The position numbers and the translations under genes are program-made. Shown in pieces: positions 24,317 to 55,346 of a stretch of DNA of 57,447 nt (the stretch's first letter is position 1; each line of letters begins with the position of its first letter). The notes under the pieces are model-generated. The model had not been told where the DNA came from, ran no database searches, and worked only from the letters and a program-made list of their open reading frames with translations. This DNA is from a virus, in IMG/VR virus record IMGVR_UViG_3300009702_000029, positions 1-57,447 of that record, one strand, 5' to 3'.

Positions 24317-26104
24317 ATGGCAATCGGCATAGGAAATCTTGGCAATATTGTTGAAGATTTTACCAATTCACTCAATCAAATCTTTGGTGGAAAGGGCTCC
24401 AATGGTTCCGAAAAGGGAGCAGCTACGGGAGATCTCTTTAATACCCGAGTAGGTGGGAGCACGAAACTTGATCAAAATAAGTGGATTGGAAATGCTGGAA
24501 CTAATAAGCGAAAAGTAAGATATGGATTTGCAACCCTAAGATTAGAACAAATTACTTCTGGAGAAGGTATAATTATCTCTGCTGATGGTAAGTCAGATAC
24601 ATTATCAAAAGTCTCTGCAACTTATTACTTAGATCTTCCTCCTCAAGCTATCCAACAAAGAGAAGTTTTCTCCAATAATATTACTGCGACACGCAAGGGA
24701 GTTATTGTTGAGTCTGAAGGTGTAGTCTTTCGAGACATCATTCTACAAGGTACTACGGGCATCATGCCAAGTCGTAGAGGTGAATCAAATACCCCACAAT
24801 CAAATTTATTTACAAAGCCCACGCAAGCCCCTACAGCTCCTCAGGGAGTTGATCCAGAGACTGGCCGTTCTCGTCATCCTAATTCTAAAGTTATATCAGG
24901 ATATGAGGAGTTCTTGCGCTTACGTCAATTCTTTTTAAAATATGCAGCAGATAAAGTTGAAACTGATGGAAATTTATTTCTAATATTTATTAATGAGAAA
25001 GACAATCAGAGTCTAATTGTTGAACCTCTAGATTTTACTATGTCTAGAGATACTAAATCTCCCCTCACGTATAATTATAAGATAACCCTTAAAGGAATTG
25101 GGGATCTTAGTGCAGCATTCCAAGGAACAGAATCTAAAAAGGGTCGTGGAGGATTGTTAGGATTTCTTGAGGATGTAGGTAATGTTTCGGCCAACGTCTC
25201 AGCAACCATTCAGCAAGGGAGGGCTACTTTTAATCAGTCTATTAGGCTTTTAACCCGTATTTCTCAATCAGTTGACCAGACCATCAATGGCCCTCTCAGA
25301 CAGGCCCAGTTCGCCACAGAGGACATCCGGGATGGGGTGGCCACAGTATTGGCTTTACCTGAAATATTGGTCAGAAACACGAATGATACAATCCTAGGCA
25401 TACGTGAGAACATTAACAACATTGGAGCTTCTTTGGGGCTAGGAGCTATAGGGAACTCTGTTACTCCAGTAAAACCAAAACCGGGGGAAACCTTACCCGC
25501 AGGCACAGAAACAGACAGAGAACAGATTTCTCAAAACTTCTCTACAACTCGAGATGTACTCAATCGGATTGAAAATGACGAATCAGTTCCAATTCCCAGG
25601 GCCTCTATGGAAGCAACGCGTAATAAGCTCGAAGATATAAGTGATAATTTAGCCGATTTTGTAGGGCTAGGAGATCCAGTTTATGATAGTATAAAGGGGA
25701 GGGTTTCTACAATAGAGCCAGATCCTCTTAAAATTGTAAGTGATGATGAATATTTATTAATGGGACAGTTATTAAAAGTTCAAGAAGCCCTCAATTTGAC
25801 TTTAGCCTCTAACGCATTGTTTCAACAAGATGCAGATATTGCCTTTGAAAATGCATCTAGCGAATTTCAAAATCCAGATGTACCAGAGGATCAACATATT
25901 ACTATTACTAAGCCGACGTCCGTCCGAGAAGTTCGAATTTTACAAAACGATACACTCGAAAGGATAGCTCAGCGAGAATATGGTAATGCACTAAGATGGC
26001 TTGATATTGTAGTACTTAATGGTCTAAAACCTCCTTATATCGCCTCCGAAGGTGGAGATAGTGTTAAAAAGCCTGGAGAAATTATTTTAGTAGGAGTTAA
26101 TTAA
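24317..26104 (+). CDS. Baseplate protein with C-terminal LysM-like domain
   Basis: 595 residues. A beta region (60-260) with LYLDL-like strands; a helical middle; and a C-terminal domain at about 540-590 (EVRILQNDTLERIAQREYGN, then ALRWLDIVVLNG and PGEIILV), which is a LysM-like fold, the common C-terminal domain of baseplate proteins that grip tube or peptidoglycan. It is close to the gp53-like LysM wedge-type proteins. The next gene starts in its stop (TAATG). Codon use becomes noticeably richer in C/G near 25200-25500. Confidence 0.7.
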   Translation: MAIGIGNLGNIVEDFTNSLNQIFGGKGSNGSEKGAATGDLFNTRVGGSTKLDQNKWIGNAGTNKRKVRYGFATLRLEQITSGEGIIISADGKSDTLSKVSATYYLDLPPQAIQQREVFSNNITATRKGVIVESEGVVFRDIILQGTTGIMPSRRGESNTPQSNLFTKPTQAPTAPQGVDPETGRSRHPNSKVISGYEEFLRLRQFFLKYAADKVETDGNLFLIFINEKDNQSLIVEPLDFTMSRDTKSPLTYNYKITLKGIGDLSAAFQGTESKKGRGGLLGFLEDVGNVSANVSATIQQGRATFNQSIRLLTRISQSVDQTINGPLRQAQFATEDIRDGVATVLALPEILVRNTNDTILGIRENINNIGASLGLGAIGNSVTPVKPKPGETLPAGTETDREQISQNFSTTRDVLNRIENDESVPIPRASMEATRNKLEDISDNLADFVGLGDPVYDSIKGRVSTIEPDPLKIVSDDEYLLMGQLLKVQEALNLTLASNALFQQDADIAFENASSEFQNPDVPEDQHITITKPTSVREVRILQNDTLERIAQREYGNALRWLDIVVLNGLKPPYIASEGGDSVKKPGEIILVGVN

Positions 26105-32842: not shown

Positions 32843-35800
32843 ATGGCACTTTTACAACGCACAAGAATTCTTCCTAATCAGCGTATTGATCTCCCAGATT
32901 ATAATAATATCGAAGATTTCATATGTGCGGACTTTAAAGCAATTCATAAGAATATTTGGACTGGCAATAATTTTGTTTTCTCAGGATTTAAGGCAACTGG
33001 AACCGGAACTACTGATCTAGCTATAGAATTGGCAGGTTCTAGTGCAGTTATTGGAGAAGATAGTGGAGTCGTGTATATTGGTGCGCCTTCGTTAGCTGCG
33101 TTATCTACCTCAGCTCTTACTCCTTCTTCAACTAATTTTATTGAAATATTTATCGAGCAGGATACTGGTGGAGCAGACTCTAGAGCATTTTGGGATCAAA
33201 CCGCAGCCGGAGGAGCAGGTGGCGAGTTCTCTCAAATTATTGATACTTTTATCTTCTTAAAAGCTACTTTTGCAATTAATACTTCAAATTTTACTGGTGA
33301 TGCAGATAAACTTCCATTATGTGAAGTTGATGTAAATGTCTCAGGTGTAATTACAGCAATTCGTGATAGTCGAAATATGTTTTGGAGATTAGGTCGCAGA
33401 GGCGATGCAACTTTTAATTTTCCCTGGTCCTCACGAGTAGAACCCGCCAATACCGCTTTTATAGGTGCAGACAAAGATATTGGAACATTTAAAGAATGGA
33501 CTGATGCGATCATGTCTTCAATCAAGGAGATTAAAGGGTCTACTTATTGGTTTGAAGCTGTTCCAATTACACTTCCTGGTACATTTGTCAATGCTGCATT
33601 AAGTACAATTGCGCCTGTTACTTCTGGAGCTAGAATTGAATGGGATGGAAGTAATCTTCGAATTACAGATGATAATCTTACTCCTGCTACAGCAGATCGA
33701 GTAGCCGCTATTCGAGCTTTAAATGATATTGCAAATATTTATTTAACTCGTCAAGATGATGGTAAAGAAGTTGTAACTATTACATTAGATGCAGTAGCTG
33801 ATGCAGGAATTTTAACTTTAGATGCCAATGGAAATTCCGTTGCCATTAATTGGAACGATAATACCGCCGCAATTCAATCTACTTGGAATGGATCAGGAGC
33901 TGCAGCAGCAACTATTGCTGGAAGTGTTGCTGAACAAAAGATCACAATTACTTTTAATACAGCAGCCAACCAAGTTGATGTATTCAAAAATACAACGACT
34001 CTTACCAAAAATACAGTTGCAGTGATTGAGACGATCTCAATTAAACAAGGCCAAGCATCAGATAATAGTATTCCTATCAATGATGGCGAAGCTCTTTGGG
34101 TAGAATTACCCGATCCTCTTGCAGATCAAGATTATACAGCAGTAGGTATTCTACAATCTAATTACAGAGTTTCGGCACGCGGAAGTGTCCCTCTTAATGA
34201 TACAACTTATTGGATTTGTTATCGTGAAGGAACTAAGTTAATCTTGAGAGATACGGGAGAATTAGAATCTGGTGAAGTTCAACAATTTGGAGATCAATTC
34301 AGTCAAGCTTTAAAAACATATATTGGAGCCACAGATGAATCTGATGATTCCCCAAATTATGATTCAGCTGATATTGTAACACAAGGCGGCCCTCTTAATA
34401 AAGCTATTGGAGAATTAGATGCAGCTGTATCTGAAAATATCTCAGATAATAATCAAGATCGAAATCTAAAATTAGTCGGAGGTGGAATCTGGGCATGGGA
34501 TTCAGGAACTGGAAATCTTTCTTTTACCACTGATGCTTATATTCAAATTCCTGGAATATCTAATGTAAGAAATACCATACAACAATCCTCTCAATCACCA
34601 ATTAATTTAGCATCTGATGGAGACGTTGCGTATGTTACAGTAAATCGCACAACTGGAGGTGCCACAAACTTAACTGTATCTACTTCCGCTATTGCATCTT
34701 TGACTCCAGGAAAAGACACAGCTATCATAGCAAGACGTATTGGAACTGAAGTTATTGTAGGAACCCATTCATTCAATCTTATTAATGGGGAATCAAAAGA
34801 GCTTGATTCTGGACTTTCTATTCAAAACCGAGCATTTATAGGAAATAGCATCACCGAAGCCACAAGTCAACCTACCTATTCTTCGGACATTCGTGGAACC
34901 GCCAGTGAGAATCTTGAAACTCGAATTGGAAACCTAACTGATGCAGCTGGAGATTATCAAGAAGATCGATCTACTTTTATGCGATCAGATTCTGAGATTA
35001 CATGGACTGGAACTCAAATCACTTTCTCAAGTGATATTGTGATTGAGATTCTCAATACCAAAAGTGGAGTTTCATCACAGCATACTATACTATCTTCTAA
35101 TAGTCCGGTATCTCTAAATAATCAAGAAAGCGCATGGGTTTTAATTGATCGAACACAGACAATTGAGAATCTGACTGTAAATCTTTCCGATTCTACAGCA
35201 ATTCCTGCTCAAACGCAGGCCAATAAAGATGTCATCGTATTATTCAGAAGAATGGATGCTAATGGATTTGCATATCTTCATCTTCCATTCATGAAGCAAC
35301 TTTTAGAACCATCTCAGAAAGTTAGACTTGGAGCAAGTGGGGGAATTACTGTAACTCCCTTTTCAATGTTGGATAATCAAGTATCTGCTGCTAATGTAAC
35401 GGGCATAGTCGTGCCCTCAACTGCTAATGCTTTTAAAGCTGAAATCAGTATTAAAAGACAACAGACTGCAGCTGGATTTGAGTTGGCTGATTTTTATACA
35501 AATTTAGGAACTGCATTTGATGGAACAGTTAACATAGTTTTGGCTCAATCTAACGACGATACTCTAGTTGGAGGCGGATTTACAACTTTAAATGGAAATA
35601 CTAGAAATCGTTTAGTTAGACTAAATTCAGATGGCACTGAGGATACTGCATTTTATGCTAATCTTGGAACTGGATTCAATGGAACTATCTTCGCTGCAGC
35701 ACAGCAATCCAGTGATAGTAAGCTCCTTCTCGGGGGTGGATTTACGACTTTGGGAGCAAATACCAGAAACTATTTAGTTCGATTAAATTTAGATGGAACA

Positions 35801-36793
35801 GAAGATAGCGCGTTCTATACTAATTTAGGAACTGGATTTAATGGGAATCTTGATACAATTGCAATTCAATCAGATGGAAAAATCCTTACTTGCGGATCTT
35901 TCACAACTTTAAATGGAAATACCAGAAATCATTTAGTTAGACTAAACTCAGATGGCACGGAGGATACTGCGTTCTATACTAATTTAGGAACAGGGTTTTC
36001 AACCCATCCCACAGAGATTTCCGTGCAGACCGACGGCAAGATAGTGGTCGGTGGTACTTTCAATACTTTGAATGGAAATATTAGAAATCGTTTAGTTAGA
36101 CTAAATTCAGATGGCACTGAGGATACTGTATTCTATACTAATTTAGGAACTGGTTTCAATGGAGGAGTTCAAGCGGTCAAAGTTCAGACTGATGGTAAGA
36201 TAGTTGTGACTGGAGATTTTACTGATCTGAATGGAAATGCTAGATCTCGAATTGTTCGTTTAAATTCAGATGGCACTGAGGATACTGCGTTCTATACAAA
36301 TCTAGGAACAGGAATTAATGCAGCTGCCACAAATATTTATGAACAAAATACAGGAAAACTTATAATCTCAGGATCATTTAGTACAATTAATGGAAATAGT
36401 CGTGTATCACTTGCAAGACTTAATTCTGATGGAACTGAGGATTCTACATTTTATACAAATCTAGGAACATCCTTTAATGCTGCAGTAAATAGTGTTGCAG
36501 AACTTTCAGATGGAAGTTTAGTTGTTGGCGGGTCATATACTTTATTTAATTCAAATATTCGAAATAGACTTGTTCAATTATATGGAGATATTGATTTAAT
36601 TGAACAGAGAACCTTACGTGGAATTTATCGATCATCTCCAAATCAATGGGATTTGGGAGCTGAGGTTTTCTTGGGAGATGATACTGGAGTCAACTTTAGT
36701 ATGACATCTTCCGGTCAACTTCAATATACTAGCACAGATCTTCCAGGAACTGTCACTGACTTTACTGCAAAATTTGCAATATTTAAACTTTAA
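32843..36793 (+). CDS. Tail fibre/receptor-binding protein with seven-repeat beta-propeller
   Basis: 1316 residues. The N-terminus (about 1-190) resembles baseplate-attaching fibre ends: a 'RILPNQRIDLPDYN' start and ARDS-type beta segments. The middle is repetitive beta (residues 280-850). Residues about 876-1250 hold seven units of about 53 residues with the pattern [LG]GGFTTLNGNTRNRLVRLNSDGTED then xFYTNLGTGFN. These are delta-60-type repeats that build a seven-bladed beta-propeller; the first strand before unit 1 (FELADFYTNLGT) would close the ring. Such propellers are plausible receptor-binding heads. The C-terminal 60 residues form a further beta domain. Repeats are near-identical at DNA level. 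Confidence 0.85.
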   Translation: MALLQRTRILPNQRIDLPDYNNIEDFICADFKAIHKNIWTGNNFVFSGFKATGTGTTDLAIELAGSSAVIGEDSGVVYIGAPSLAALSTSALTPSSTNFIEIFIEQDTGGADSRAFWDQTAAGGAGGEFSQIIDTFIFLKATFAINTSNFTGDADKLPLCEVDVNVSGVITAIRDSRNMFWRLGRRGDATFNFPWSSRVEPANTAFIGADKDIGTFKEWTDAIMSSIKEIKGSTYWFEAVPITLPGTFVNAALSTIAPVTSGARIEWDGSNLRITDDNLTPATADRVAAIRALNDIANIYLTRQDDGKEVVTITLDAVADAGILTLDANGNSVAINWNDNTAAIQSTWNGSGAAAATIAGSVAEQKITITFNTAANQVDVFKNTTTLTKNTVAVIETISIKQGQASDNSIPINDGEALWVELPDPLADQDYTAVGILQSNYRVSARGSVPLNDTTYWICYREGTKLILRDTGELESGEVQQFGDQFSQALKTYIGATDESDDSPNYDSADIVTQGGPLNKAIGELDAAVSENISDNNQDRNLKLVGGGIWAWDSGTGNLSFTTDAYIQIPGISNVRNTIQQSSQSPINLASDGDVAYVTVNRTTGGATNLTVSTSAIASLTPGKDTAIIARRIGTEVIVGTHSFNLINGESKELDSGLSIQNRAFIGNSITEATSQPTYSSDIRGTASENLETRIGNLTDAAGDYQEDRSTFMRSDSEITWTGTQITFSSDIVIEILNTKSGVSSQHTILSSNSPVSLNNQESAWVLIDRTQTIENLTVNLSDSTAIPAQTQANKDVIVLFRRMDANGFAYLHLPFMKQLLEPSQKVRLGASGGITVTPFSMLDNQVSAANVTGIVVPSTANAFKAEISIKRQQTAAGFELADFYTNLGTAFDGTVNIVLAQSNDDTLVGGGFTTLNGNTRNRLVRLNSDGTEDTAFYANLGTGFNGTIFAAAQQSSDSKLLLGGGFTTLGANTRNYLVRLNLDGTEDSAFYTNLGTGFNGNLDTIAIQSDGKILTCGSFTTLNGNTRNHLVRLNSDGTEDTAFYTNLGTGFSTHPTEISVQTDGKIVVGGTFNTLNGNIRNRLVRLNSDGTEDTVFYTNLGTGFNGGVQAVKVQTDGKIVVTGDFTDLNGNARSRIVRLNSDGTEDTAFYTNLGTGINAAATNIYEQNTGKLIISGSFSTINGNSRVSLARLNSDGTEDSTFYTNLGTSFNAAVNSVAELSDGSLVVGGSYTLFNSNIRNRLVQLYGDIDLIEQRTLRGIYRSSPNQWDLGAEVFLGDDTGVNFSMTSSGQLQYTSTDLPGTVTDFTAKFAIFKL
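35470..36590 (+). repeat. Seven tandem ~160-bp repeats of the propeller
   Basis: Each unit encodes about 53 residues with the block RLNSDGTED. A stretch of more than 45 bp starting TAGAAATCGTTTAGTTAGAC is identical in units 1 and 4 (near 35602 and 36082), which lie exactly 480 bp apart. Identity at silent sites points to recent gene conversion or unit duplication. Confidence 0.85.
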
Positions 36794-45008: not shown

Positions 45009-47132
45009 ATGCTTGTAAGGGTTACTCAGTCGGTCAAGGATTATGGAACACTCGTTCATCCAGACGAAGTGGAGGCCTTGATCGACGACCCTTCTAAGGA
45101 TTGGTATAAATCTCCCTTTTATTATGGAAATGATGTTCTTGAATATTTTAAAGAACATAAGAATAGTATCAAGGGCTACACTGGAGAGGTTTGGACAGAT
45201 TCTCTTTATTGGGATTTAGATTGTAAAGGAAATTTTGAAGAAGTTAGGGAAGGTGCCATTTGTCTTATTAACAAACTTATAGACTTAGAACTTGATTCTG
45301 CAATTGAACTTTATTTTAGTGGCAATAAGGGAGTTCACGTATTTCTTAGAACAAAGAATAAATTTACCCCAGATGAAGCAAAAAAGATCTGTTATAATTT
45401 GGCTTATGAGGCCGGAGTTCTTAAATATAAAGATAAGAACGGTAAGGCCATATTTGATACGACTGTTTATAACATTAATCGAATCTTTAGAATACCTAAT
45501 ACAAAACATCAAGAATCAGGATTATTTAAAATCCAATTGGATATTGATGAATTTGAAGTAATTAGTGAAACTAAAGTTCGAAAGCTTGCTAAAAAGCCAG
45601 CAGAGATCGTATATGCCACACCCATAGAGGCTGAATTTTTAAAAGAAGATTATAATACTCAATCACAACTTGAAGTGGTATCAAATATTGTAGATATTAC
45701 ATCATTAAAGGAAAAATATATAGGAGATTTTAATCCTTTAGACTGTCCTCCTGATAAACGAAGATGTATTTATGTTCTAGAAAATGGATATTTTGGACCA
45801 GGAGAACGCGAGAATGCATCTATAAGATTGGCAGCTTATTATCATGGTCAAAATTGGACCAAAGAACAAACTTTTGAAAAATTAGTTGATGCATTGGATA
45901 AACGGGCAGAAAATTATCCAGATGCGACTCCTTGGAAAGAAGAAGACGTACACCGAGTAGTAGATCTTGTATATTCTGAAGGATGGAATGGTGGTACTTA
46001 TTCTTGTAAAACTGATGATTTTTTACGATCAAAATGCGATGTTGGAGCTGGACCATGTTGCAATAATACTTCTGCAAAACCCTCAGGAGTAACAGTTGGA
46101 GGTTTAATTGATCAATATATTAATTATGGTCTAGAAGCTTTAGATGAATATCCTAAAACGGGGTTAGATTGGGTAGATAACTTAGTTAGATTTCGACCGC
46201 GCAATTATTCTATTATTAATGGAGCAAATGGATCAGGTAAAACTGCATTTTCAATTCAATGGATGGAACATCTTAATGAACAGAAGATGTGGCATATTAT
46301 ATTCTCTGCCGACATGGCCAATACCTCATTATTTGAAAAAATGGCAGCAAGGAATACAGATCTTACTCCTATGGATATCGAGAGAGCATTTAATAAACAC
46401 TTCATTGATAAGGAAGCTCAAAAACGTGTGACTGCTGCTCTTAGGGAAAAATATCCATATAGCATTTTTGACTTTACATCTGCGCTTACATCACGACATA
46501 TTGAACGTGAGATCAGACTTTGGAATGAACTTGGATATAAGATTCAAATAGGTTTCATTGATTATGCAGGACGAATGATTGGAGATAATGATAGTCAATA
46601 TCAAAATGCTACACAGATTGCTTTGGAAGCTAATGATATTGCAAAACGAACTAATACTCATTTGTGTTATATCTCTCAAATTCCACGGGATGAGGGAGAT
46701 CATACTAGACCTCTAAGATCTAGTCGTGTATCAAAAGATTCGGGAGCATGGGAAGAAAATGCCACTATCGTCATTAATGTATGGAGGCCTATGGGAGATG
46801 GCATTGAGGATTTAGATAGCTATATGCATATTTATATTGCAAAGAATAGATCTGGAGCTTTAGCTGAACGAGTATTTTGGTGGGAAGGTAAGCAAGGTAG
46901 AATAAGTAATATTTCTGAAGAAGAGTTCAAGGCGTATAAAGGTTTTTGTGAGGAATTAGATCGACCAAAACCATATGAGCAATTTGAAAATCGAACTAAT
47001 GATAGAAATAAGCTTCAAAGAAATGATCGGTATAGGGCAAGTAGGAAAGATAATGACAAAGAAACAGATCAGTTACATAATGATCGAGAATCAAGAGCAA
47101 CTAAACGAGGTTCTAAGTTGTCTAAAAGATGA
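45009..47132 (+). CDS. AEP-type primase fused to DnaB-like helicase
   Basis: 707 residues. N-terminal half is an archaeo-eukaryotic primase: YWDLD with D69 and D71 (metal-binding), SGNKGVH (104-110), a third acidic residue at D150, and FRIPNTKH (160-167) with R161. A cysteine cluster at 333-351 (C333, C343, C350, C351) suggests a metal site. The second half is a RecA-fold helicase: Walker A GANGSGKT (405-412), a Walker B strand IGFIDYAGRM near 520, later SQIPRDEGDH and KNRSGALAERVFWWEG, like DnaB-type replicative helicases. It replaces the T7-style TOPRIM primase-helicase. TGA stop; the polymerase gene starts inside its end. Confidence 0.88.
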   Translation: MLVRVTQSVKDYGTLVHPDEVEALIDDPSKDWYKSPFYYGNDVLEYFKEHKNSIKGYTGEVWTDSLYWDLDCKGNFEEVREGAICLINKLIDLELDSAIELYFSGNKGVHVFLRTKNKFTPDEAKKICYNLAYEAGVLKYKDKNGKAIFDTTVYNINRIFRIPNTKHQESGLFKIQLDIDEFEVISETKVRKLAKKPAEIVYATPIEAEFLKEDYNTQSQLEVVSNIVDITSLKEKYIGDFNPLDCPPDKRRCIYVLENGYFGPGERENASIRLAAYYHGQNWTKEQTFEKLVDALDKRAENYPDATPWKEEDVHRVVDLVYSEGWNGGTYSCKTDDFLRSKCDVGAGPCCNNTSAKPSGVTVGGLIDQYINYGLEALDEYPKTGLDWVDNLVRFRPRNYSIINGANGSGKTAFSIQWMEHLNEQKMWHIIFSADMANTSLFEKMAARNTDLTPMDIERAFNKHFIDKEAQKRVTAALREKYPYSIFDFTSALTSRHIEREIRLWNELGYKIQIGFIDYAGRMIGDNDSQYQNATQIALEANDIAKRTNTHLCYISQIPRDEGDHTRPLRSSRVSKDSGAWEENATIVINVWRPMGDGIEDLDSYMHIYIAKNRSGALAERVFWWEGKQGRISNISEEEFKAYKGFCEELDRPKPYEQFENRTNDRNKLQRNDRYRASRKDNDKETDQLHNDRESRATKRGSKLSKR

Positions 47133-48186
47133 AGCAACTGAGGTAGCTTTTGATATCGAGACGACTGGGGTTCAAGAACATGTAGTAGAGACTATAGGCA
47201 TAGCCTTTACATGGTTCACAGATGGTGGAATTTATCTTCCATTATATGTTTATAATAAAGAAGAAGATAAGCTTAAGCCCTATTTTGATCTTAAAGTTCA
47301 AGAGGAAATGATTCATAAATTATGTGAAACACTTTTGGATTATAAGCTCATAATGCACAATGGCGTATTTGATATTGCCTGCATTTTTCATCGTTACGCA
47401 ATCAATCTTACTGCTGCACTTTGGGCAGATACTATTTTAATGAAACATACAGTTGATGAGGAACGTCCATTTGGATTGAAGCAAATAGGTGAAAAGCTTT
47501 TTGGAGAAGAAGCCACAGATGAACAAAAAGATCTTGAAGAATCTGTTAAAGCTAATGGTGGAAGGTGGAATAAGAAGAACAAAGATATGTACAAAGGAGA
47601 TCTTGATTTACTTGCAAAATATGCTATTAAAGATGTTATTTTGACTTTAAAAATTTATGATGAATATAGTATAGAAATGGAACAGCAAGGATTAGATAAA
47701 TTCTTTTATAAACAGGAAGTTATGCCTCTTTATAAAAGTGCGACAATACCCATGAAGTTAAATGGAATGTACATTGATATAGCGTATTTTAATAACTTGA
47801 AAAAGGAAGTTGAAGATGGTATAATTAAGCTAACTGATGAGGTCTTTGACATGATCGAAGATGACATAGAACCTAAAGTTCGTGAAATTTTAGATAAAAG
47901 TATAAGATCCTCAAGGACAGGTAAATTTGCTGAAGGATTGTTGCGGCATTATGAACTACCAGTGCCTCTTAATAAGAAGACTGGAAAGCCCACACTTGCT
48001 AAAAGTGCGTTGCGATCTCTTGAAGTTGAATTTCCTGAGCATCCTGCAATAACTTGGTTAATGTGGGAAGCGCCCAAAAAATTAGTCACTGTCGAAAAAG
48101 AGATAGAAACACCTATTTATGCCGCCGGAGACGATCCCGAATTTGATAAGGCCCGAGATTATATCAAGGAAATTGTCACAGTTTAG
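47053..48186 (+). CDS. Family A DNA polymerase, N-terminal part (3'-5' exonuclease)
   Basis: 377 residues from an ATG with AGGA 6 nt upstream; it overlaps the primase-helicase gene by 80 nt. The exonuclease motifs are intact: VAFDIETTG (D34, E36), the MHNGVFDIAC motif, and YAIKDVILTLKIYD. The thumb-like region follows with helical, charged sequence. The protein ends at TAG 48184, but the reading frame continues without a break into the polymerase part (48187 on), so the two halves may be one 808-codon gene interrupted by TAG. A split polymerase of two chains is the alternative. Confidence 0.8.
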   Translation: MTKKQISYIMIENQEQLNEVLSCLKDEATEVAFDIETTGVQEHVVETIGIAFTWFTDGGIYLPLYVYNKEEDKLKPYFDLKVQEEMIHKLCETLLDYKLIMHNGVFDIACIFHRYAINLTAALWADTILMKHTVDEERPFGLKQIGEKLFGEEATDEQKDLEESVKANGGRWNKKNKDMYKGDLDLLAKYAIKDVILTLKIYDEYSIEMEQQGLDKFFYKQEVMPLYKSATIPMKLNGMYIDIAYFNNLKKEVEDGIIKLTDEVFDMIEDDIEPKVREILDKSIRSSRTGKFAEGLLRHYELPVPLNKKTGKPTLAKSALRSLEVEFPEHPAITWLMWEAPKKLVTVEKEIETPIYAAGDDPEFDKARDYIKEIVTV

Positions 48187-48222
48187 AAATTAATTAAAGA
48201 CGAATCAGTCGAAGGTCCTTCT

Positions 48223-49479
48223 TTGCCTGATGACGTCATTTATGCTGTCAAAAAGGAATTATACGTTGAACGCTATCCTGCTTACCCTAGGGTATTTAAT
48301 TTATCTTCTACCCATCATCTTAGTTGGTTATTATTTGATGTTTACGGACAGAAAGCGACGAAACATTCGAAAAAGACGGGCCAGCCTACGGTTGATAAAG
48401 ACGCCCTCGACCAATTCGACCTCCCATTCATCCCACTTCTCGCAAAATTAAAAAAAGAAGAAAAACTTTTGAGCACTTATATAGGACCTATTCTTGAAAA
48501 GCAACATAATGGATGGTTGTATCCCTCAATGCAACAATTTGGAACTACGTCAGGTAGATATTCTTGTGGTGGTGGGTTAAATTTTCAAACACTTCCAAGA
48601 GATGATAAAAGAGTTAAAAAAGGTTTTATAGCACCTCCAGGCTATAAAGTAGTAGCTGCTGACTTTTCTTCGTTAGAACCCCGCATTTTTTCATGGGTAT
48701 CAGATGATCCAGGACTTAAAGCAGTTTATTGGGATAATTTGGATCTTTATTCACAAATTGCAATTGATGTATTTGGTCTTGAAGGAGTTAGTGCTCATGA
48801 AGAAGATGATAACTTTCTTAAAAAAGTTCAGCCAAGCATGAGACAATTATCTAAAGTTTTTACACTTGCCGTACCTTATGGTGCAGGTGCTGGACGTATT
48901 GCGAATATTCTGAATAAAGATTATAATGAAGCAGATAATATTATTAAAGCTTACTTAAATGCTTATCCGGGTCTAAAAACTTACATGACCACGCAAGAAA
49001 AGAATGCTTTTAAAACTGGAATGGTATACACTCGTTTTGGACGTATTCGACATTTACCTCATGCAAAAGAATTATATGATAAATATGGTCAATGTTTGTT
49101 TAATAAAAAGCGTTTAACTGTAGCATTAATGAAAGAAGGCTTTGATCATGAAGAAGCCAAAGACGAATCTAACGAGCTTTTTTACAAATTTCGTAACTAT
49201 CTAAATAATGCTAAGAATTTTCCAATTCAGAGTACCGCAGCACATGTAACTAATGCAGCGCTTATTTACTTGGCAGAACTTTTAGAAGATAATAATATCG
49301 ATGGTTGGATTTGCTTACAAGTTCATGATGAAATAATACTACTTGTTAAGGAAGAACAAGCGGAATTTGCTGGAGAATTAGTGAAAGAGGCGATGGAAAA
49401 TAATTGGGTAGCGCAAGAAATTGACATTCCAATGATTGCTGTGCCAGAAATAGGAAATAACTTCGCCGAAGCAAAATAG
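48223..49479 (+). CDS. Family A DNA polymerase, C-terminal part (polymerase domain)
   Basis: 418 residues from a TTG with GAAGG 7 nt upstream, in the same frame as the first part, 36 nt after its TAG. Polymerase motifs are all present: motif A VAADFSSLEPRIF, motif B MRQLSKVFTLAVPYGAG (with the conserved K and YG) and motif C LQVHDEI. The region before motif A (FNLSSTHHLSWLLFD) is the typical thumb text. It stops at TAG with the next gene starting 15 nt on in the same frame. The bases from about 48070 to 48460 use clearly more C-ending codons than the flanks. Confidence 0.88.
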   Translation: MPDDVIYAVKKELYVERYPAYPRVFNLSSTHHLSWLLFDVYGQKATKHSKKTGQPTVDKDALDQFDLPFIPLLAKLKKEEKLLSTYIGPILEKQHNGWLYPSMQQFGTTSGRYSCGGGLNFQTLPRDDKRVKKGFIAPPGYKVVAADFSSLEPRIFSWVSDDPGLKAVYWDNLDLYSQIAIDVFGLEGVSAHEEDDNFLKKVQPSMRQLSKVFTLAVPYGAGAGRIANILNKDYNEADNIIKAYLNAYPGLKTYMTTQEKNAFKTGMVYTRFGRIRHLPHAKELYDKYGQCLFNKKRLTVALMKEGFDHEEAKDESNELFYKFRNYLNNAKNFPIQSTAAHVTNAALIYLAELLEDNNIDGWICLQVHDEIILLVKEEQAEFAGELVKEAMENNWVAQEIDIPMIAVPEIGNNFAEAK

Positions 49480-49494
49480 GAGAATATAGATATT

Positions 49495-51216
49495 ATGGCT
49501 AAGAAAAAACTAACTGCTGCTCAAAGAGCTAGAGAAACTGCTAAGAAAAAGAAAGAGCAAGAAAAACTTAAAAAAGAGAAAGTAAAAGCCAAGCTTGAAA
49601 AACAAAAAGCTGCGCGAAAGCGAGCAATGCTTGAGAAGTATGTAAAGATTGTTCAGCAAACTAACATGTTCCCTACACGTTCAGACTTAGCTACCGTAGG
49701 TATTTCCAGAGATAATCTACGACATTACTTTGTAAATATTAAAGGTATGCGAGATGCCGCCAAGATGACCTTTCCCGAAGTATTTGAAGGTGTGGTGGAT
49801 GTTGAGAATTATATCGACAAAAAATATCAAGAGGCGCTCCAAAAAGAAATTAAAAAATATAAAAGATTCTTCATAACTACTGCTGTTAATGGTCAGTTTG
49901 TTCATCCTGGATTTATGGAGAGCATTAATACTTATTGTAAAAAGAATAAAACAAAATTATTAATTCTCCCATGTCATGATCCTGCACATAATTTAGATAA
50001 TCAAATTGAATGGCATTTTGATGATGTTATTTCACAAAATGGACATGATATTGTGTTTTCTGAATTATCTTTAAATTCAAATATCCATATTAGTGGACTT
50101 AGAGTGACAGCAAAACAAATCAACCCGACTACGGGACTTGCTAGGGTGTCACAAAATAAGGGTAGTTTTATTTTTGGTTCACCAAAACAACCACTTGAAT
50201 TTAATCCTGTTGCAAGTAAGAAGATGCCTCATGCATTAATGGGAACTGGAGCATGCACAGTCAAAAATTATAAAACCACCAAAGGTAACTCACTTAGATC
50301 AGCTTTTCTTGCAGATCATGACCACGAATTGGGTGGGTTAATTGTTGAAATTGAGGATGATAAGATTTATCATTTTAGACAAATACAAATTGATGTCAAA
50401 GGCAAATTTATAGATCTTGGAATAGAATATTCAGGCAAAAGCACCAAAGCTGTAAGAGGAACTAGACTTGTATTGGGAGATTATCATGCCGGAGAGCATG
50501 AAGAAAGTGCCGTTAATGCTTGGGAGCAAATAATTAATCAACTCAAAGTAGAGGAACTTTTCTTACATGATGTACATAATGGACTATCCACTAATCATCA
50601 TGAAGAAAAAAATATGATTCTTCGTGCTAAACGCGCACAAGAAGTTAATCAAATATCTCTTGAAGCTGAATTAAAGATCACTGCCAGAGAAATTGATCGT
50701 ATGGCTTCTTTGGAAAGTGTTAAAAAAGTAGTGATAATTAAATCAAATCATGATGAGTTTTTAAATCGTTGGTTAAATGAGTGTCGTTTTAAAAATGATC
50801 CAATTAATTTTCAATTAGGCTGCCGATTAGCAGATAAAAGCATAGATGGAGCCGATCCATTGCAAGAGGGCATCAAAGAAGTGGGAGGATTAAAGCATTC
50901 CCGCAAAGTATTGTGGCTCAAGCGTGATCAGGACTATAAATTTGCTGATATTGAATTGGGAGCACATGGAGATGTGGGACCTAATGGGGCTCGCGGATCT
51001 AAGGCTAATTTGGAAAAGGCGTATGGTAAGTGTGTCATTGGTCACTCTCATACTCCTGGGATTCTTAGAGGTGTTTTTCAAGTTGGAACAACCTCAAAAT
51101 TTCAGTTGGGCTATAATAGGGGAGCATCTAGCTGGATGCATACTTCATGCCTAGTCTATCCAAATGGCCAACGTCAATTGATTAATTCAATTGGTGGTAA
51201 ATGGCGACTAAAATAA
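49495..51216 (+). CDS. T5 A1-like calcineurin-type phosphoesterase
   Basis: 573 residues, with AGGAG upstream (overlapping the polymerase TAG). Residues 1-50 are Lys-rich and helical. The middle resembles T5 A1-type proteins (residues 110-330). The metallophosphoesterase motifs are LGDYHAGEH (about 326-334), HDVHNG near 358, SNHDEF near 417 and GHSHTPG near 515, in the right order for a two-metal phosphatase/nuclease fold. T5 A1 is needed for host DNA breakdown and for the second step of DNA transfer; the same role is possible here. The name rests on resemblance; the metallophosphoesterase fold is clear. Confidence 0.65.
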   Translation: MAKKKLTAAQRARETAKKKKEQEKLKKEKVKAKLEKQKAARKRAMLEKYVKIVQQTNMFPTRSDLATVGISRDNLRHYFVNIKGMRDAAKMTFPEVFEGVVDVENYIDKKYQEALQKEIKKYKRFFITTAVNGQFVHPGFMESINTYCKKNKTKLLILPCHDPAHNLDNQIEWHFDDVISQNGHDIVFSELSLNSNIHISGLRVTAKQINPTTGLARVSQNKGSFIFGSPKQPLEFNPVASKKMPHALMGTGACTVKNYKTTKGNSLRSAFLADHDHELGGLIVEIEDDKIYHFRQIQIDVKGKFIDLGIEYSGKSTKAVRGTRLVLGDYHAGEHEESAVNAWEQIINQLKVEELFLHDVHNGLSTNHHEEKNMILRAKRAQEVNQISLEAELKITAREIDRMASLESVKKVVIIKSNHDEFLNRWLNECRFKNDPINFQLGCRLADKSIDGADPLQEGIKEVGGLKHSRKVLWLKRDQDYKFADIELGAHGDVGPNGARGSKANLEKAYGKCVIGHSHTPGILRGVFQVGTTSKFQLGYNRGASSWMHTSCLVYPNGQRQLINSIGGKWRLK

Positions 51217-51465: not shown

Positions 51466-52233
51466 ATGAGATTAGTATTATTTGTGGGGCCTAAAGGATG
51501 TGGAAAAGATTCAGCAGCATCAATGCTATATCAAGCAAAAAAATCACGATCTAAAATTAGTTTTGCAGGACCTTTAAAGGAAATTTGTGCAAAAGTATTT
51601 AGATATCCTGCTAAATTCATGAATGATCCAATTCTTAAAGAGAAACCATTTGAAACTATTGAAATCTTGGATCGAACTAAGTTAAGACTTATTAAACAAG
51701 AGCTTCCAAAATATGTTCCAGAACTAGATCCAGTTACGGGCTTATTAAAATATAATATTGACCGAGTGACAGTATCTGGTTTGGAGAATAGACAATTCAC
51801 TAAACCACGGGAGATCCTACAACAAGTGGGAACAGATTTTATTCGCAATCTAGTGTATCCAAACTGGCATGTAGAGGCTGCTTTTAGCCCGGAGCGAGTG
51901 ACTAAGTATCGAAAAGGAGAACTATATTGTGTGACAGATACTCGATTCTTAAATGAATATAAATTTCTTTTAAAAAACTATGGAGATTCCTTAAAAGTAT
52001 ATTATATCGAACGTCCAGAAGCGGAAGCTCATTTAGCAGAGGCCACTCATGAGTCAGAACTTGAAGTTTTAAAAATAAAAGAATTACTTCCCAAAGAGTG
52101 CATCATTAAAAATGATGGAAGTTTAGAAGATTTTAAAAAGAAAGTTTTAAAACTTGATTTACCACCTAGATCTGGGAAGAAAGCGGCTTCGGCCAAGAAA
52201 ACTGGATTTATATATGGAACAAGAAACAGATAA
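51466..52233 (+). CDS. Deoxynucleoside monophosphate kinase
   Basis: 255 residues, GAGGAG SD upstream. Walker A GPKGCGKDSAA (8-18), then SFAGPLKEI and REILQQVGTDFIR motifs and a TDTRFLNEY segment before YYIERPEAE (nucleoside-binding region). This is the T4 gene-1 type dNMP kinase layout, which makes dNDPs for phage DNA synthesis. The last 25 residues form a Lys/Ala-rich tail (SGKKAASAKK), unusual for the family. The CYTH gene overlaps its end. Confidence 0.75.
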   Translation: MRLVLFVGPKGCGKDSAASMLYQAKKSRSKISFAGPLKEICAKVFRYPAKFMNDPILKEKPFETIEILDRTKLRLIKQELPKYVPELDPVTGLLKYNIDRVTVSGLENRQFTKPREILQQVGTDFIRNLVYPNWHVEAAFSPERVTKYRKGELYCVTDTRFLNEYKFLLKNYGDSLKVYYIERPEAEAHLAEATHESELEVLKIKELLPKECIIKNDGSLEDFKKKVLKLDLPPRSGKKAASAKKTGFIYGTRNR

Positions 52234-52840
52234 CAAGACTTTAGAGTTTCATGAAGTCGAAGTTAAATTTAGACTTGATGCTTCTAAGCTTGATGAATGG
52301 AAATTATTAGTATCTGGTTTAAAAGGACAGAAAGACTTTGATCTGAAAGAATGGATTGCAGTAGATTCTGATGATATATATTTTACTCGTCCTCCATCAA
52401 AAGATATGGATTATGAGTTCGTTAGGTATAGATTCTCAGATGATAAGAAACAAAAACGGGCCGAACTTACCACCAAATGTAAGCTCTCGGATGCCAATAA
52501 CATTATTCGAAAAGAATTTAATCTTAGAGTTGATAATAATTCTAAAGAAACTGTTGAGGCTTTTATTGAAAGTTTGGGATTTAAGCGTAGTTTCACCATA
52601 ACAAAACATGTCCAAATTTATAGATTCGAAGATGCCACATTGCCTTATTATACAGTCATTGATGATAAAGGTAAGCGGAATACCTTTATCGAAATTGAAG
52701 TTAATGAAGAGAAGATTCATAAACTTACCAAAACAGAATGTTGGGCAATTATTGAGAAGTACGAAAAAGTGCTTGCACCACTTGGCATATCAGCAAAAAA
52801 TAGACTTAGGAAAAGCTTGTTTGAAATGTATAAGCCGTAG
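52214..52840 (+). CDS. CYTH-domain protein (triphosphate tunnel metalloenzyme)
   Basis: 208 residues from the ATG 20 nt inside the previous gene; a farther upstream start is less likely, and the SD is poor. The ExExK motif (E14, E16, K18 in EVEVKFR), the charged strands YEFVRYR and AELTTKCK, KEFNL, the KHVQIYRFED strand and FIEIEV are the eight-stranded tunnel of CYTH/CyaB proteins, whose positive and acidic residues bind triphosphate and metal. Known members are thiamine triphosphatases, tripolyphosphatases or class IV adenylate cyclases. Which substrate applies cannot be told. TAG stop shared in context with the next gene. Confidence 0.75.
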   Translation: MEQETDNKTLEFHEVEVKFRLDASKLDEWKLLVSGLKGQKDFDLKEWIAVDSDDIYFTRPPSKDMDYEFVRYRFSDDKKQKRAELTTKCKLSDANNIIRKEFNLRVDNNSKETVEAFIESLGFKRSFTITKHVQIYRFEDATLPYYTVIDDKGKRNTFIEIEVNEEKIHKLTKTECWAIIEKYEKVLAPLGISAKNRLRKSLFEMYKP

Positions 52841-54705: not shown

Positions 54706-55346
54706 AATCTGAACTCAAAAGGATATTTTTCACATCAGACTGGCATATAGGGCACCAGAACGTCCTGAGATTTGATGAGAGGCCATTCAGGGACCTTAAA
54801 CACATGCATGAGGCCCTGACTATGAGATTCAATGCCAATGTCCCTGAGGATGGGATTACGTACTTCCTGGGGGATATGGGGCTTTGTAAGGGGGCTATTC
54901 TTGAAGGGATAATTAAGGGACTTAATGGGACCAAAATTTTGATTTTAGGCAACCACGATAAAGGCATTAACGCAATGCATAATGTAGGCTTTGATGCAGT
55001 GCTTCATGGCATGGTGCTGTGGATTGCAGGTGAGCGAGTTACGCTCAGCCATTGTCCACTTTTAGGATTGCCAAGAGAGGATACAGGTAAAATGAGAGGC
55101 TCTACTGGTAAAGAGAACTGGCACGGAGAGGGACATGCAAGTTACGAAAAATTTACATTCTCAAATGAAGGACAATTTCATTTGCATGGACATATTCATT
55201 CTCGTCCTGAAAGAAAGGAAAGTGAACAAATATGTAAACGTCAATTTGATATTGGAGTTCCTGCAAATGGTTATTATCCTGTAAGTTTTGCGAGAATTGA
55301 AAGTTGGATTAAAAGAACTAAAAGGAAAGAAGAAAATGGCCTTTAA
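54702..55346 (+). CDS. Calcineurin-like metallophosphoesterase
   Basis: 214 residues from the ATG overlapping the previous TGA (ATGA). Motifs in order: FTSDWHIGH (D13, H15), YFLGDMGL, ILILGNHDKG, VTLSHCPLL and LHGHIHSR. This is a complete two-metal calcineurin-type phosphoesterase of small size, often found in phages. It may act on nucleotides or RNA. A second phosphoesterase (49495-51216) is present but not closely related. The 5' part of the gene uses more C/G-ending codons than its neighbours. Confidence 0.85.
   Translation: MKSELKRIFFTSDWHIGHQNVLRFDERPFRDLKHMHEALTMRFNANVPEDGITYFLGDMGLCKGAILEGIIKGLNGTKILILGNHDKGINAMHNVGFDAVLHGMVLWIAGERVTLSHCPLLGLPREDTGKMRGSTGKENWHGEGHASYEKFTFSNEGQFHLHGHIHSRPERKESEQICKRQFDIGVPANGYYPVSFARIESWIKRTKRKEENGL

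Follow-up and report, generated by a model that had tools for sequence, protein, structure and literature searches.

The DNA polymerase gene in the 57,447-base record of an uncultured phage (hereafter, the window, meaning the whole stretch of DNA analysed) is interrupted by one in-frame TAG codon. The most probable reading, to which we assign a probability of about 0.6, is a single-codon nonsense change private to this sequence in an otherwise intact polymerase, arising either by recent mutation or as a consensus or assembly error. This reading is preferred because the stop lies in a flexible, variable loop and is missing in about 100 relatives. The window is a fragment of the phage genome: its first gene encodes the C-terminal part of a major head protein. 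Since it is for the most part collinear with two relatives, 113 and 111 kb long, it probably contains about half of the genome (relatives' genome lengths 110–116 kb, versus 57 kb for the window).

The gene occupies positions 47053–49479 of the plus strand and encodes a family A DNA polymerase in a single frame apart from the TAG at 48184–48186, which is codon 378 of 808. The frame and the domain matches agree with the preliminary description that the exonuclease and polymerase halves share one frame with this lone stop between them; its figure of 808 codons for the polymerase with the stop removed needs the correction that the count, as used here for the read-through product, includes the stop position itself. 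The N-terminal part (47053–48186, plus strand, 377 amino acids) comprises the 3'-5' exonuclease and the first thumb elements (PF01612, E = 7.4e-15). The C-terminal part (48187–49479, plus strand) comprises the thumb, palm and fingers (PF00476, DNA_pol_A, E = 9.1e-62) and finishes with the residues NNFAEAK and a terminal TAG. Both matches exceed the cut-offs, as expected of a family A enzyme. The catalytic residues D34, E36, D107, D194, D537, R597, K601, H758 and D759 are conserved, and those of motif A (D537), motif B (R597 and K601) and motif C (H758-D759) are thus retained in the C-terminal part. In an alignment of relatives the corresponding columns are all invariant save that of D107, which is nearly so.

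A single-sequence search with the polymerase half returned no relatives, and alignments were required; alignment-based scans of IMG/VR found more than 100, of which 108 were analysed. The polymerase is a single open frame across the stop site in all 108, including three for which the match starts only at query residue 90–103, and the window gene is therefore the sole interrupted copy. Five relatives (L004, L005, L084, L085 and L086) are 50–56% identical to the window polymerase, and the N-terminal part is 48–53% identical to L004 and L005 across residues 1–330. Of the window ORFs, 44 have homologues in the two long relatives, and among these only the polymerase is split: in no other case do two ORFs match consecutive stretches of a single gene of a relative. 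The other partial ORF coverages correspond to record ends or to variable or fibre-like genes. No near-identical contig with a different codon at 48184 was found among the records searched, and the patterns used returned no relatives from bacterial genomes. Named phages are distant. The closest, Flavobacterium phage immuto (MW353175; about 32–34% identity), has a family A polymerase with the same domain order and the C-terminal sequence NNFAE, but its gene is intact, encodes 777 amino acids and is missing most of the long hairpin element described below.

Modelled with AlphaFold (mean pLDDT 91.9, pTM 0.83), the read-through chain has the Pol I fold, with TM-scores of 0.88 to the Klenow fragment of E. 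coli Pol I (1d8y) and 0.72 to phage G20c Pol I (7r0k), calculated by target; identity over the structural alignments is about 18–20%. An element lying between the FNLSS motif and the first helices of the thumb is present in a six-member subfamily and missing in its sister clade. The model folds this element as a long antiparallel beta-hairpin on the thumb surface, with strands at residues 342–354 and 370–382, and the stop, at residue 378, falls in the predicted return strand. Its counterparts in the five closest relatives are I, Q, K, P and P, from which it follows that the site accepts many residues. A loop insertion of 14–15 codons, unique to the window gene in the alignments (around residues 355–370; approximately 48115–48165, plus strand), sits at the hairpin tip just upstream of the stop and is modelled with low confidence (block means 72 and 59). 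The location is tolerant of a stop and structurally plausible for a split.

Two repeats were seen in the same region. The hairpin strands LVTVEK (48082–48099) and IVTV-stop-K (48172–48189) are encoded by similar DNA 90 bases apart, a likeness attributable to chance or to a small duplication. The thumb also seemingly carries two copies of a K-T-G-x-P-T tip motif (residues 296–328 and 427–458; 47938–48427), for which a profile comparison gives E = 0.0002 with a probability of only 46%.

The codons around the stop are unusual. The preliminary description had noted a patch from about 48070 to 48460 rich in GAC, GTC, CTC, TTC and ACG, and a within-gene permutation scan of synonymous codons places the best C3 interval at 48076–48441 of the plus strand (p = 0.0024 for C3 and p = 0.005 for GC3, values that would lose significance under strict correction for two measures and 45 genes). 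The patch is real, although the ACG codons are confined to 48358–48390 and the portion 48253–48345 is near normal. No other 390-nt interval scanned reaches its C3 z-score of about 5.9. Compared with the remainder of the gene it has z = 5.7, versus -1.5 to 0.8 for the corresponding stretch in ten relatives. It is therefore private to this sequence. Conservation of the stop and patch in relatives had been proposed as a check, and the stop is found in 0 of 108 and the patch in none of the ten; intact relatives sharing the patch had been named as evidence against the initial interpretation, and all 108 relatives are indeed intact but none of the ten has the patch. Comparable GC3 patches without a stop occur in three other window genes. 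That at 25184–25543 lies in a gene (24317–26104) conserved in the two long relatives; that at 35882–36121 is in a fibre-like gene (32843–36793) whose distal part has no homologue in either, and that at 54720–55124 is held by a phosphoesterase gene (54708–55346) that likewise has none.

The patch brings into consideration a homologous exchange, in which the thumb linker would have been replaced by some 370 bases of DNA from an as yet unsampled member of the subfamily with C-richer codons, and the patch, the loop and possibly the stop introduced along with them. We consider such an exchange possible but not probable; it is compatible with a private nonsense change. The codon patch is unique to the window gene, and the protein that it encodes is homologous to the subfamily and about as similar to it as any member, which points to a homologous segment and not to a foreign one. 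Amino-acid affinity within the patch shifts towards L005 (p = 0.04) and L084 (p = 0.07), in the direction of the recombination suggested earlier, but these values are uncorrected and the shift is not significant once corrected. Moreover, the patch shows no rise in DNA identity to L005, no donor was found among viral contigs or named phages, and an exchange accounts for the patch better than for the stop. Together, patch, loop and stop suggest that the linker has recently changed; their co-location does not demonstrate that they arrived in a single event. Nor does the patch vouch for the base call at 48184, contrary to the earlier argument that the two observations together made the stop more than a sequencing error.

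The scar of an intron or intein at a known insertion site had also been suggested. An Rfam search of the window returned no match and no ribozyme, and near the stop there is no extra insert beyond the 14–15 codon in-frame loop. The stop is situated in a variable linker confined to the subfamily and not in a conserved motif, so that neither an inserted element nor a conserved site of the kind favoured by introns or inteins was found, and this origin was rejected.

Could the two halves be made separately? As had been claimed, a candidate restart site is present at codon 391 (48211–48225, plus strand), where GAAGG (48211–48215) lies 7 nt upstream of a TTG (48223–48225) that opens a 418-amino acid ORF. 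The TTG is 36 nt past the TAG, and the intervening 12 codons keep the frame. Translation ending at the TAG and restarting here would yield a 377-amino acid exonuclease chain and a 418-amino acid polymerase chain associating via the thumb, an arrangement that we regard as unlikely. Shine-Dalgarno-like sequences are present at many window genes, the cut falls in a predicted surface hairpin, and the second chain would start directly ahead of a predicted helix (residues 393–407). Split family A polymerases are moreover known from the Methylophilales phages MEP401 and MEP402 (PMC10580990), where a phage polymerase is derived from two ORFs, as it would be in the window. In those phages, however, a small ORF lies in between, the split is common within the group, and the second ORF begins near motif A (window residue 533), whereas the window gene is divided in the thumb and 0 of its 108 relatives have two ORFs. 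The TTG is not shared as a start: the homologous site lacks a TTG in L005 and L084, and L004 has a TTG there without such an upstream sequence. The GAAGG may be incidental, since it encodes an EG pair within a partly conserved EGP/TGP stretch. Finally, a predicted RNA hairpin (48195–48242, plus strand, -16.6 kcal/mol) encloses both GAAGG and TTG and would bury the restart site.

The same hairpin starts 9 nt downstream of the stop and is thus of interest for the suppression of the TAG by a tRNA encoded either by the host or in the missing half of the phage genome, which would give a full-length polymerase. The frame is preserved on both sides of the TAG, and readthrough of TAG by phages with suppressor tRNAs is known from amber-recoded crAss-like phages (PMC7886860), in which, as here, in-frame TAG codons lie within conserved phage genes. 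Nevertheless, suppression is very unlikely. The crAss-like phages have many TAGs in many genes together with suppressor tRNAs; the window has one internal TAG in 57 kb and no tRNA was found in it. Nine ORFs, counting that ending at 48184, end in TAG, and in seven of the eight others a second stop follows 2–9 codons later; the eighth is the polymerase's own end, where L004 has TAA and L005 TGA. TAG is an ordinary terminator in this genome. The expectation that it ends other genes (for example the ORF at 52154–52840), making a reassigned code improbable, was borne out, and amber reassignment was rejected on the single internal TAG and the backed TAG terminators. Amber suppression would also fuse the polymerase to the gene that follows it (49495–51216, DNA transfer protein family), which lies in the frame of the polymerase's terminal TAG.

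A search for a suppressor tRNA, proposed at the outset, finds no tRNA gene in the window, itself a genome fragment, and none in three relatives of 110–116 kb or in a fourth (a 38-kb fragment); the two tRNA-Leu(UAA) found in a fifth are not suppressors, being unable to read UAG. Because the window spans 57 kb where relatives have 110–116 kb, a phage tRNA may be missing from it, and the host may likewise have a suppressor. The downstream hairpin is stable (its energy is in the top 0.4% of the window's 48-nt segments) yet relative to its own context its z is only -1.4, and no counterpart was seen in relatives; it was rejected as a programmed-readthrough structure. As neither the restart features nor the hairpin is conserved, programmed restart and programmed readthrough are without evolutionary support. 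The window gene has the defining features neither of the lineage-wide, MEP401-type split nor of crAss-like recoding.

For a private nonsense change, the course of events would be that an intact family A polymerase acquired a single-base change, or its consensus an error, at codon 378. The stop would have fallen in the tolerant surface strand 370–382, part of a subfamily-only element free to vary in sequence and length, and the same stretch would also have gained the 14–15 codon loop and the C-rich patch in this phage. We infer that the stop arose recently and that the enzyme had functioned as a full-length chain before it; the retention of the frame on both sides, of the catalytic residues and of the 12 codons between TAG and TTG is as expected if the event is recent. 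Two points weigh against so simple an account. The patch and the loop give the region a history for which a base error does not account, and the TTG with its Shine-Dalgarno-like sequence, placed just before a helix, could permit a working split.

It is also conceivable, if quite improbable, that the polymerase has been newly divided by one nonsense codon, with chains meeting in the thumb hairpin, and represents an intermediate before the ORFs drift apart. A stop that is both real and fixed would mark a permissive cut site in the family A thumb and the opening step on the way to split polymerases. Should it instead be an erroneous base or a private mutation, the case warns against reading recoding or a split enzyme into a single in-frame stop of a metagenomic virus.

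Two further features of the locus were observed. Residue 605 of the polymerase (48865–48867), within motif B, is a leucine that is invariant in a 25-member alignment; we take it to be the counterpart of residue 762 of E. coli Pol I, a position associated in the literature with phage lifestyle. The gene directly downstream of the polymerase varies in predicted size, from 573 amino acids in the window (49495–51216) to 429 in L005 (8430–9719) and 262 in L004 (8343–9131), and this slot is perhaps exchangeable.
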